From assembly GCA_005798445.1 (NCBI GenBank), contig SYJG01000425.1:1-40403 (forward strand): a stretch of DNA of 40,403 nucleotides, read 5' to 3'. Positions 21,647-32,418 of the stretch are shown here, one piece after another. A program made the translations under genes and the position numbers. The notes under the pieces were generated by a model. That model made no database searches. It was not told the DNA's origin and worked only from the letters and a program-made list of their open reading frames with translations. This stretch comes from Planctomyces sp. Lineage in GTDB: Bacteria > Planctomycetota > Planctomycetia > Planctomycetales > Planctomycetaceae. The stretch's first letter is position 1. Each line of letters begins with the position of its first letter.

Positions 21647-21680
21647 CGTAGTGTCTCCAAGTGTGAGGCTTTGTTTCTCG

Positions 21681-21774
21681 GCCGATGGCAGTGAGCCGAA
21701 AGCCGATCGCCGTTATCACAAATTCAAATGGGTTGTGATAACGGCTATCGGCCATCGGCCAACGGCTTTCGGCC
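21681..21774. repeat. GGCCGATGGC-type palindromic element, overlapping the 3' end of the oxidase gene
   Basis: Inner arms 21703-21720 and 21734-21751 are complementary at 17 of 18 positions, with a 13-base spacer. The outer parts carry permuted GCCGATGGC and GCCGAAAGCC modules on both sides. It fills most of the gap between the ceramidase-like gene and the oxidase gene and supplies the last codons and the stop of the latter. Confidence 0.85.
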
Positions 21775-22971
21775 GGACAGTCGGGCAAGGCTGAGGAAGT
21801 CGATTGGTAGCTCGGTGCGGCCTGTTGTTGCCAAGTCGGCGAAGACGCTTCCGAGAACCGAGGTGAACTTGAATCCGTGGCCGGAGAAACCGCAACCGAT
21901 CACGACGTTGGGAAACTCTGGATGCCGATCGACGACGAAGTGCCGGTCAGGGGTAACGGTGTAGAGGCAGGTCGAATGCCGTGCGGGCTGTGAACGAACT
22001 GCTGGCAGGCAACTTTGTAAGAAATTCGCGATCGGCTGGACGTCAGAGTCATGCAGTTGGCGATCGACGAGCAACGGATCAGCGACGATATCGCCGCCGG
22101 AGTGTTGAGCAACTTTGAGAACTCGTCCGTCGAGCGAAGGGAAGCCGTAGAAGGTGGATGCCATTTTGTCAGTAGCCCGGACGCCTACGTCCGGGCGCTC
22201 GGACGTAGGCGTCCGAGCTACGAATTCAGGCGGCATCTCGAAATAGAACGTCGGCATCGACGCATCGAGGTTGTATGCCGGTGATGTCGTCTCGAACCAA
22301 AAGATCGGTTTGCGGAGCACCTGCAACGGCAGCTTGAGGTCGGCGAGCACCGACGCCGCCCACGAACCGGCGGTGATGACCAGCGACGCAGCCACGAACT
22401 CGCGCGTTGCCGTGCGCACGCGAACCTCGCGGCCGGTGCTCGACCAGGAGACGACCGGTTCATCGAACAACAGCGTCGCTCCGTGAGCAGTTGCGCGATC
22501 CAGATGCGTGCGCACGCAGTCTTCGACTTTCAAGAATCCGGCGTCCGGTTCAAAGACGACATCAAACTCATCCGGGACGCGAAAGCCGGACCAGCGCTGT
22601 GTCGCTGCGAACGCAGACAGATTTTCGATGGTCAGTCCGTGCTGACTCGCGGAGAGCCGTGCGCCAGAGATCGCTTCGCTGTCGGGCAGGCCGGCGAGCA
22701 GCAGGCCGCACTTCCAGAACAACTGCTGTTGCGATTCGGCTTCGAGATCGGCCCACAAGTCGTAGGCTTTCAGCAGCAGTGGGACGTAGTCGGGGTGCTC
22801 GAAGTACGCCTTGCGGATGATCCTCGTCTCTCCGTGCGAGCTGCCTCGATCGTGAGCCGGACCAAAGCGGTCGAGGCCGAGCACTCGCAGGCCGCGCCGA
22901 GCGAGGTGATACGCCGCTCCGCTGCCGAAGCCGCCGGTTCCCAACACGATGACATCGAACACTTCCGGCAT
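21745..22971 (-). CDS. FAD-dependent amine oxidase of the sarcosine / N-methyltryptophan oxidase family, with in-frame palindromic insert
   Basis: 408 residues. The FAD-binding start DVIVLGTGGFGSGAAYHLAR, the HDRGSSHGETRIIR block and the C-terminal VIGCGFSGHGFKFT match monomeric sarcosine oxidase and N-methyltryptophan oxidase. Cys335 in STCLYTVTPDRHFVVD aligns with the cysteine that binds FAD covalently. These enzymes oxidise N-methyl amino acids to the demethylated amine, formaldehyde and H2O2; the substrate here is unknown. Residues 251-267 (ARTPTSERPDVGVRATD) come from a palindrome inserted just before the STFYGFPSL strand. Residues 400-408 come from a second repeat. Both inserts keep the frame and no catalytic motif is lost. 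The start has only a weak ribosome-binding site. Confidence 0.9.
   Translation of the reverse strand: MPEVFDVIVLGTGGFGSGAAYHLARRGLRVLGLDRFGPAHDRGSSHGETRIIRKAYFEHPDYVPLLLKAYDLWADLEAESQQQLFWKCGLLLAGLPDSEAISGARLSASQHGLTIENLSAFAATQRWSGFRVPDEFDVVFEPDAGFLKVEDCVRTHLDRATAHGATLLFDEPVVSWSSTGREVRVRTATREFVAASLVITAGSWAASVLADLKLPLQVLRKPIFWFETTSPAYNLDASMPTFYFEMPPEFVARTPTSERPDVGVRATDKMASTFYGFPSLDGRVLKVAQHSGGDIVADPLLVDRQLHDSDVQPIANFLQSCLPAVRSQPARHSTCLYTVTPDRHFVVDRHPEFPNVVIGCGFSGHGFKFTSVLGSVFADLATTGRTELPIDFLSLARLSGRKPLADGR
22172..22221. repeat. Near-perfect palindrome inserted in frame in the oxidase gene
   Basis: Arms 22172-22192 and 22201-22221 are complementary at 20 of 21 positions (the exception is a possible G-T pair), with an 8-base loop. 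Each arm carries the core GGACGCCTACGTCC or its complement. It lies entirely inside the minus-strand coding sequence. Confidence 0.93.
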
Positions 22972-30163: not shown

Positions 30164-32149
30164 CTACCCCAGTCTTCCGAACTGGCGTTCGAGTTCGTTC
30201 TCCGTCAGCACCAGCGCCGTCGGGCGGCCGTGCGGGCAGTGGTGGGCGTCGTCGATCAAGTGGCGTTGGGCGAGCAGGCTGTCGATTTCCTCCGGCGAGA
30301 GCCGCTGTCCGGCCTTGATCGCGGCTTTGCAGGACATCATGTGCAGCAGCGAATCGAGCAGGTCGCGGCGATCAGGCGCTTTCTCCGGCTGGTCGAGTTG
30401 CTCGGCCAGATCGCGGACCAGTTGTGGGAGGTTGGCCTTTTTGAGCATCACCGGATAGCGATCGACCAGCACTGTCTGGCGGCCGAATTCTTGAACGCCC
30501 AGGCCGAGCTGATTCAGCACGTCGGCGTACTCCAACAGCAACGCGGTTTCCTTCGGTGTGAGTTCGACCGTCTCTGGGACGAGCATCCGCTGCGATTCGA
30601 CGGCGTTGTCGAGCACGCGCGGACGCAGGTACTCGTAAACAATCCGCTCGTGCAGTGCGTGCTGGTCGATCAGCGTCAGCCCCTCGTCTGTTTCGACGAC
30701 GATGTAGGTGTCGCGAATCTGCATGGCCCGCAATTCTCCGTGATTCACGCGGCTCGCGTGGCGATTCACCACATCGCTGTTCGGCAACTCAGCCGGAGCC
30801 GAAGTGGTCGCGAATGATGCCAAGTCCGCCGCCGGTTTCGTGATCTGAGAATTGAGATTGGAGATTTCAGATTCGTCCGACACCGTCGGCGATTCAGCCA
30901 CGCCGACACGCGGCAACTCGGCTGGTGGTCGAGGCACGTTGTTCCACAACGAGTTGTTCGACGACGAACCACTCGAGGACGAACCCATCGGCGGCGACCA
31001 AGACTGCAGCTCGACGCCGCGCGGTCGCGGGCCGGCTCCGGCTGTCGCGAAACCGCCGTTCGACGGAAGTCGCATCGTTGATTCAAAGTTCAAACTCAAA
31101 AACTTCGTCCGCAGCATCGACAACAATTGTCGGAACAGAGCTTGGCCATCGGCGAAGCGAACCTCGGATTTGGTCGGGTGGACGTTCACGTCCACAATCT
31201 CGGCGGGAACTTCCAGAAACAAGAACGAAATCGGCTGACGGCCGATCATCAGCAAGCCGCGATACGCTTCGGTCAGTGCGTGTTGCAGCGAGCGGTCTTG
31301 AATCCAGCGGCCGTTGAGAAACAGATGCTGGCTCTTGCGAGTGCTCTTGCTGACCGACGGATGGCCGACGTAGCCCCACATTCGCACCCCCTGCGATTCC
31401 GATTCGACCGGGATCAGGTTGTCCGCCAGTTCGTTGCCGAACAACAAGCGGATGCGGTCGAGCAACTGAGTCGTGCCGGGCAACTCGAAGACGACTTTGC
31501 CGTTGTGCCGCAGCACGAGATGCAGTCGCGGTTGTGCGAGGGCAATGCGAGTGAAGTGCTCGGTGATGTGCGCGAACTCGGTGCCGATGGACTTCAAAAA
31601 CTTCCGGCGGACCGGCGTGTTGGCGAAGAGTTGCCGCACTTCAATCTGCGTTCCGACCGGACAGCCGCAGGGCTGCGGTGGCGCGATCTGTCCGAATTCG
31701 GAGAGGATTTCGTGGCCCGACAAGCTAGCCCGACGCGCGAGCGAGGGGTCTTCCGCTGCAACCCCTCGCTCGTGCGTCGGGCTAGAGTCGGTCGCCGCGT
31801 CGGGCGTGCGGCTGCGAATACGAAGCCGGCTGACCTCAGCGATCGACGCCAGCGCCTCGCCGCGAAAGCCCATCGTTTGCACTCGAAAGAGGTCCTCGGC
31901 CGAGGCGATCTTGCTCGTCGCGTGAGCGGTCACGGCCAGCAGCAAGTCGTCGGGATGGATCCCTTCGCCGTCATCGACGATGCGAATCAGTTCCCCGCCG
32001 CCAGCTTCGAGATCGACTTCGATCCGTGTCGCCAGCGCGTCGAGGCTGTTTTCGAGCAGCTCCTGGACGACGTTGGCGGGACGCTCAATGACCTCGCCGG
32101 CGGCGATTTTGTTGACGACCGAAACGTCGAGTGCATGAATCCGAGACAT
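30164..32149 (-). CDS. mutL: DNA mismatch repair protein MutL with in-frame palindromic insert
   Basis: 661 residues. The GHKL ATPase motifs are present: IAAGEVIERPANVVQELLEN (15-34), RIVDDGEGI and TMGFRGEALASI. The dimerisation domain carries the endonuclease motif DQHALHERIVYE (from Asp495), plus SCKAAIKAG and CPHGRP, so this is the nicking type found in bacteria without MutH. Residues 122-142 (SSPTHERGVAAEDPSLARRA) are encoded by a palindrome inserted between RLRIRSRT and the VGTQIEVRQLF strand, inside the ATPase domain. The flexible linker near 430 contains another repeat-like segment (SEISNLNSQI). The start is the first ATG of a standard MSRIHAL sequence. First gene of the minus-strand run. 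Confidence 0.96.
   Translation of the reverse strand: MSRIHALDVSVVNKIAAGEVIERPANVVQELLENSLDALATRIEVDLEAGGGELIRIVDDGEGIHPDDLLLAVTAHATSKIASAEDLFRVQTMGFRGEALASIAEVSRLRIRSRTPDAATDSSPTHERGVAAEDPSLARRASLSGHEILSEFGQIAPPQPCGCPVGTQIEVRQLFANTPVRRKFLKSIGTEFAHITEHFTRIALAQPRLHLVLRHNGKVVFELPGTTQLLDRIRLLFGNELADNLIPVESESQGVRMWGYVGHPSVSKSTRKSQHLFLNGRWIQDRSLQHALTEAYRGLLMIGRQPISFLFLEVPAEIVDVNVHPTKSEVRFADGQALFRQLLSMLRTKFLSLNFESTMRLPSNGGFATAGAGPRPRGVELQSWSPPMGSSSSGSSSNNSLWNNVPRPPAELPRVGVAESPTVSDESEISNLNSQITKPAADLASFATTSAPAELPNSDVVNRHASRVNHGELRAMQIRDTYIVVETDEGLTLIDQHALHERIVYEYLRPRVLDNAVESQRMLVPETVELTPKETALLLEYADVLNQLGLGVQEFGRQTVLVDRYPVMLKKANLPQLVRDLAEQLDQPEKAPDRRDLLDSLLHMMSCKAAIKAGQRLSPEEIDSLLAQRHLIDDAHHCPHGRPTALVLTENELERQFGRLG
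30841..30873. repeat. Possible repeat-derived segment in the mutL linker
   Basis: An AT-richer stretch with TCTGAGAATTGAGATTGGAG, translated on the minus strand as SEISNLNSQI in the disordered linker of MutL. It has only weak dyad symmetry and no second copy in the window. Suggested because similar segments recur in planctomycete proteins, from memory. Confidence 0.35.
31725..31785. repeat. Near-perfect palindrome inserted in frame in mutL
   Basis: Arms 31725-31749 and 31761-31785 are complementary at 24 of 25 positions (the exception is a G-T pair), with an 11-base spacer. Both outer ends are CTAGCCCGACGC or its complement. It lies entirely inside the coding sequence. Confidence 0.95.
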
Positions 32150-32236
32150 CGCGCTGAGTGACTCCTTTCTGGCCTTGGGAAGTTATCGGATTGCGGGGCG
32201 GGCGTCTCGCCTGAGCAATCATCATTCGGTCGGGGA

Positions 32237-32341
32237 GTCTCTCGTCTCCCTTGCCCTTCGGGAGAGGGTCAGGGTGAGGAAGCCGTCCGTGATTGAATCC
32301 CTCATCCGGCCTTCGGCCACCTTCTCCCAAAGGGAGAAGGG
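32237..32341. repeat. GGGAGAGGGTCAGGGTGAGG-type repeat between mutL and the DUF1559 gene
   Basis: The left part contains GGGAGAGGGTCAGGGTGAGG; the right part has two hairpins, GGCC-TTC-GGCC and a perfect 9-bp stem CCTTCTCCC (32320-32328) with GGGAGAAGG (32332-32340). This G-rich type of repeat is widespread between bacterial genes. It lies in the 269-base gap between divergent genes. Confidence 0.75.
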
Positions 32342-32418
32342 AAGATTCGTAACCGCTTCCAAACCTCGTACAAACTGGCATCGCATGGTTCTCGCGTGGT
32401 CTCCTAGAATTCCGCACC

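Follow-up and report, generated by a model that had tools for sequence, protein, structure and literature searches.

A REP dimer translated within MutL of a planctomycete belongs to a dispersed repeat family that flanks RAYT transposase genes in relatives

The window analysed here, a stretch of 40,403 nucleotides from an uncultured Planctomyces sp. (contig SYJG01000425.1), contains an intact mutL gene whose reading frame runs unbroken through a palindromic element. The ATPase, second and C-terminal Pfam domains of MutL are all found, the endonuclease-type motif DQHALHERIVYE is present, and the gene is the sole MutL match in the assembly. The features of the locus are as follows:

30164-32149, minus strand: mutL host gene, 661 aa, intact
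31718-31789, minus strand: full insertion in mutL, 72 bp, 24 codons, MutL residues 121-144, delimited by a codon alignment of mutL from 12 congeners against empty sites, with ends uncertain by a few bases
31725-31785, no strand: REP dimer (REPIN), 61 bp, two inverted REP arms with CTAG tails pointing outward
31725-31749, plus strand: REP arm 1, CTAGCCCGACGCGCGAGCGAGGGGT, C:G subfamily
31750-31760, no strand: 11-bp spacer separating the REP arms
31761-31785, minus strand: REP arm 2, CTAGCCCGACGCACGAGCGAGGGGT
22172-22221, no strand: unrelated GTAG-tagged inverted pair, in frame in a FAD-dependent oxidoreductase gene (21745-22971, minus strand)

The arms of the mutL palindrome are 25 nt long and complementary at 24 of 25 positions (96%). 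The first-pass annotation had described this geometry correctly, including the 11-nt spacer and the preserved frame; its figure for the added length (61 bp, 21 residues) has to be replaced by 72 bp and 24 residues, since 7 bp on one side of the palindrome and 4 bp on the other are missing from empty sites too. It had also proposed a strong RNA hairpin, and folding confirms this: an 81-nt mutL region folded as mRNA reaches -63.4 kcal/mol (z = -8.0), and none of 200 shuffled sequences was as good. An Rfam search returned zero matches within the window. Just upstream of the mutL start, at 32230-32345, lie two stretches that resemble GGGAGAGGGTCAGGGTGAGG, one in each orientation, which look like another dispersed repeat.

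The history of the insertion was approached by comparing mutL across 12 species of the genus, the genome of the window being G000. The insert is found in three of these congeners (G000, G003 and G005), and the site is empty in the other nine. Accordingly, GFRGEAL and GT(Q)IEV stand 72 residues apart in the three carriers and 48 in the nine other species, the latter value being shared by nearly all other readable planctomycete MutLs. Thus, the expectation that the inserted residues would be absent from relatives holds, while the idea that RLRIRSRT and VGTQIEVR are adjacent in ordinary MutL does not, since empty-site proteins already have 48 residues between GFRGEAL and GT. A target-site duplication was sought by eye at filled and empty sites of mutL and rarA, and none was clear.

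In a MutL tree built with the insert removed, the carriers fall within a five-species group that also includes G006 and G009, and two changes are needed. Since the carriers form no clean clade in this protein tree, loss or recombination in G009 has to be invoked, and one gain followed by such an event fits the distribution of carriers. The mutL gene of G009 (L036) groups with that of G005 on the MutL tree, yet its empty segment is G006-like, which suggests loss or local recombination. In a separate case, mutL of a Planctomycetia MAG (L228) has its own insertion at this MutL loop, distinct from the present one and about a dozen residues long or longer.

The arms of the mutL palindrome belong to a large dispersed family. 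A genome search with the 25-bp arm gave 91 matches at three or fewer mismatches and none for a reversed-pattern control, and the broader family pattern recovered 614 arms in G000 against 3 for its control, or about 300 dimers of this mobile hairpin. The suspicion that the palindrome is a mobile repeat is therefore well founded, given both these hundreds of copies and the three filled and nine empty sites among congeners. All 12 congeners carry the family, with 91-614 arms each. Outside the genus its distribution is patchy: two genomes of other families have 440 and 442 arms, and many have near zero.

The copies are organized mostly as doublets. Among sampled sites of G000, 86 of 94 were inverted pairs whose tails point outward, with lengths of 57-98 bp and most often 60 bp; these dimer surveys are samples rather than counts over whole genomes. 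Positions 3 and 19 of the arm pair in 166 of 172 arms (A:T in 121, C:G in 45), and five mixed dimers, in which one arm is of the A:T and the other of the C:G type, keep this pairing within each arm. In other words, the hairpin of each single arm is conserved, not only the long stem formed by both, as expected of the REP units in a REPIN (PMC3116915). The tails of the 172 arms include CCAG (65), CTAG (38), TTAG (23) and GTAG (4). With a tail of the form YYAG and GTAG in only 4 of 172, the family is placed outside the GTAG superfamily.

The relation of the family to transposase genes surfaced through the lower-scoring Y1_Tnp genes of relatives, one of whose proteins was then searched in the genus. 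Within the genus, a Y1_Tnp/RAYT gene of G010 (L356) has exact AGCACGACGCGCCAGCGAGTG arms of the A:T type on both sides, one of G001 (L359) has exact CACACTAGCCCGACG arms of the C:G type on both sides, and the RAYT gene of G006 is flanked by AACCCGAAGCG variant arms; in G008 an arm pair lies just upstream of the RAYT gene, on one side only. Among other relatives, arm-flanked Y1_Tnp genes are found in G050 (two; L334 and L337), G018 (L312 and L330/L336), G035 (L320), G040 (L346) and G024 (L348), with arms on one side only in G026 (L333), and these arm-flanked genes are the weakly scoring ones. The HxH motif is expected in the Y1/HUH enzyme class, and the RAYT protein of G035 has it (NHVHVVV). 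Used as a query, this protein finds relatives in 8 of 12 congeners, including one in G011, where a Pfam search alone finds no Y1_Tnp gene. At one of the G050 genes (L334, 1374-2538), seven REP arms lie head-to-tail upstream and inverted arms downstream.

This query detected no RAYT of the linked clade in G000, G003, G005 or G009, and neither the eight Y1_Tnp genes of G000 nor the best-scoring ones of the genus have an obvious excess of arms nearby. The absence from G000 weighs less as evidence because its assembly is a fragmented, 90%-complete MAG of 553 contigs and repeats break assemblies. Other paralogues of the linked RAYT clade adjoin other repeats; for instance, a paralogue in G007 adjoins GGGGGCTGACGCC, which resembles a palindrome found in rarA of G004, G007 and G010. 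Since the arms flank RAYT-type (Y1/HUH) transposase genes in relatives, including G010 and G001, the element is assigned to the RAYT-associated REPINs. Pairing within each unit, inverted doublets in high copy number and a flanked Y1/HUH gene, the last in relatives, are all observed here.

A classical MITE, with terminal inverted repeats and a DDE transposase, would share the small size and the inverted repeats of about 25 bp at both ends. Terminal repeats of that kind need no pairing within an arm, however, and here such pairing is conserved, in mixed dimers too; moreover, the arms flank RAYT genes and the comparison of filled and empty sites gave no clear target duplication. A MITE is accordingly a very improbable identity for the element. 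An assembly or binning artefact deserves mention because the genome of the window, like those of most congeners, is a fragmented MAG, but the insert occurs at one and the same codon in three separate genomes and its sequence has diverged among them, which makes the chance of such an error almost negligible.

The mutL copy is one of a larger number that are translated. With a codon-usage model that asks whether the sequences to either side of a dimer are both coding and share a strand, 13 of 86 dimers in G000 and 4 of 63 in G006 were found open and in frame within coding sequence. Among the 149 dimers of these two surveys (17 in frame), no out-of-frame copy was found inside a gene; the same-strand, different-frame copies that were inspected lie at gene ends, past a stop codon or ahead of a start. 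The in-frame hosts include MutL, RarA/MgsA, a protein kinase, a penicillin-binding protein, two DUF1592 proteins, two DUF1553 proteins and one DUF1549 protein, and in most of those hosts that were scanned, the insert lies within or next to a Pfam domain. In the Ser/Thr protein kinase (L135, element 1498-1567), the copy is read in frame within the activation loop, between DFG and APE.

The frame itself is biased. The right arm is read as (P/H)SL(A/T)RRA in 16 of 17 cases, namely 13 of 13 in G000 and 3 of 4 in G006, one LALRA variant (L015) being allowed. The exception (L395 in G006, element 1498-1560) is read as TTRWRVVLV and stands directly ahead of a hydrophobic, membrane-like helix. Assuming independence and equal frames, the chance of the same reading in 13 of 13 cases is 1.2e-4 if the two open frames are even, and that of all 13 lying in frame is 6e-7; the 17 cases are not all independent, since L371 of G006 is apparently the orthologue of L127 of G000. 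Scaling 13 of 86 dimers to about 300 gives an estimated 25-73 in-frame genes in G000 for this family alone, with a point value of 45. In a distant genome (G051), 0 of 23 dimers were in frame, a difference from G000 that is not significant (Fisher p = 0.07) and that was obtained with a poor codon model (13 of 40 training ORFs kept). Most simply, the element would insert blindly and selection would retain the copies whose peptide suits the place, the others presumably being removed by purifying selection.

Certain sites have received palindromes more than once. In one region of rarA, the present element occurs in G000, G005 and G011, a palindrome with 31-nt arms in G004, G007 and G010, and a third palindrome in G002, where its arms were tested, and in G006, while G003 has none. 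Three unrelated palindromes thus occupy one rarA site (L245-L255) in different species, all of them in frame, and a similar pattern of insertions is seen in a DUF1592 gene family. The GTAG-tagged pair at 22172-22221 of the window is the same phenomenon in another repeat family, its arm having 36 genome matches at three or fewer mismatches. An imperfect 43-nt inverted repeat at 21679-21775 overlaps the 3' end of the same FAD oxidoreductase gene.

The place of the insert in the MutL protein was examined with an AlphaFold2 model of residues 1-360, based on a 50-sequence alignment. Mean pLDDT is 88.8, falling to 51-58 for residues 121-140, and the insert sits between strands 108-114 and 144-151; the insert is thus modelled as a loop, with low confidence. 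Between carriers, amino-acid changes affect 4-6 of 24 insert codons, compared with 2-7 of 63 flanking codons. The hairpin has an energy of about -67 kcal/mol in G000 and G005, and in G003 it has dropped to -33.8 kcal/mol (z -1.9), the stem pairing being largely decayed, with no restoring changes and with the frame kept. Loosely evolving insert codons and decay of the G003 hairpin favour a tolerated insert over a maintained function of RNA or protein.

These observations bear directly on the possibility that the hairpin is kept for regulation, in which a stem-loop in the mRNA would slow translation or be cut by RNase and so tune mismatch repair. The great stability of the hairpin in two carriers speaks for such a role, and REPs have often been argued to be RNA elements (PMC3733652). 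The decayed stem of G003, the nine congeners that do without the insert and the presence of the same element in many unrelated genes count against it, leaving a regulatory role very unlikely. An evolvable mutator switch can be rated equally low. In that scenario, repair and hence the mutation rate would change as the element comes or goes close to the part of the ATPase domain that faces MutS; the alignment places the insert just after residue ~117 of E. coli MutL, an influence on MutS binding may be possible, and two genome-stability genes, mutL and rarA, both carry copies. Against this, the insert evolves loosely and most other identified in-frame hosts are non-repair genes. A bolder version, in which REPIN gain and loss in mutL and rarA makes a heritable, reversible change of loops by which a parasite tunes the mutation rate of its host, is slightly less probable still.

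The best reading is that a surface loop of MutL harbours a selfish element which the protein tolerates, and it is very likely that a REPIN spread by RAYTs was inserted once in mutL and is translated there as a flexible, mostly neutral loop of 24 residues. Two inverted REP units of one family, tails outward, would be spread by RAYT transposases (Y1/HUH tyrosine enzymes) acting on small REP hairpins, and one such copy, probably moved by a RAYT, would have reached mutL in the line from which G000, G003 and G005 descend. Its retention is attributed to a length that is a multiple of three, the lack of a stop codon, a hydrophilic peptide and a location where a loop of the ATPase domain joins two beta strands. 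The product would be a MutL with a flexible, mostly neutral extra loop, and this protein probably still works.

The kind of element is known, and three published systems are close to it. REPINs, or RAYT-associated REP doublets, were described as extragenic (Bertels and Rainey 2011, PMC3116915). The present family resembles them in its inverted short imperfect palindromes, its hundreds of copies, mostly doublets, and the RAYT gene beside the family, and differs in that a sizeable share is translated in frame, in its YYAG rather than GTAG tail and in that no linked RAYT was found in the assembly of G000. REP dimers of the GTAG and CGTC families that lie within genes encode 20-30 residues, and many of their hosts serve replication and repair; they are known from PVC bacteria, Opitutus terrae among them, and from R. 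conorii (BMC Genomics 2013, PMC3733652); mutL is unmentioned in the main text of that article. Dimers within genes, a similar peptide length and repair-gene hosts are shared with them, while the tail found here is neither GTAG nor CGTC. The present analysis adds a single genus in which filled and empty sites can be compared, together with the frame bias and the shared hot spots.

Rickettsia palindromic elements, of about 105-150 bp, are rickettsial and lie in frame in conserved proteins (Ogata 2000, 2002; reviews PMC2229807, PMC10969869). Like them, the present element is a palindromic repeat translated in conserved proteins and apparently tolerated; size and host set it apart, as it is a REP dimer of 57-98 bp in Planctomycetes with RAYT partners. 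The parallel drawn with these elements by the first-pass annotation is supported by the repeated arms, the empty sites of congeners and the loop model, and it concerns the way in which the element works. No published description of the planctomycete family was found in the open-access literature subset, and the family, its scale, its frame bias and the shared hot spots look new.

The element is a clear and new example of a DNA parasite in a bacterium that is translated as part of normal proteins. Filled and empty sites within one genus indicate that REPINs linked to RAYTs do not only lie outside genes, and that various conserved proteins include them in translated form. They also provide a natural experiment for asking which loops of a protein tolerate 20-25 additional residues, and in what frame these are read.
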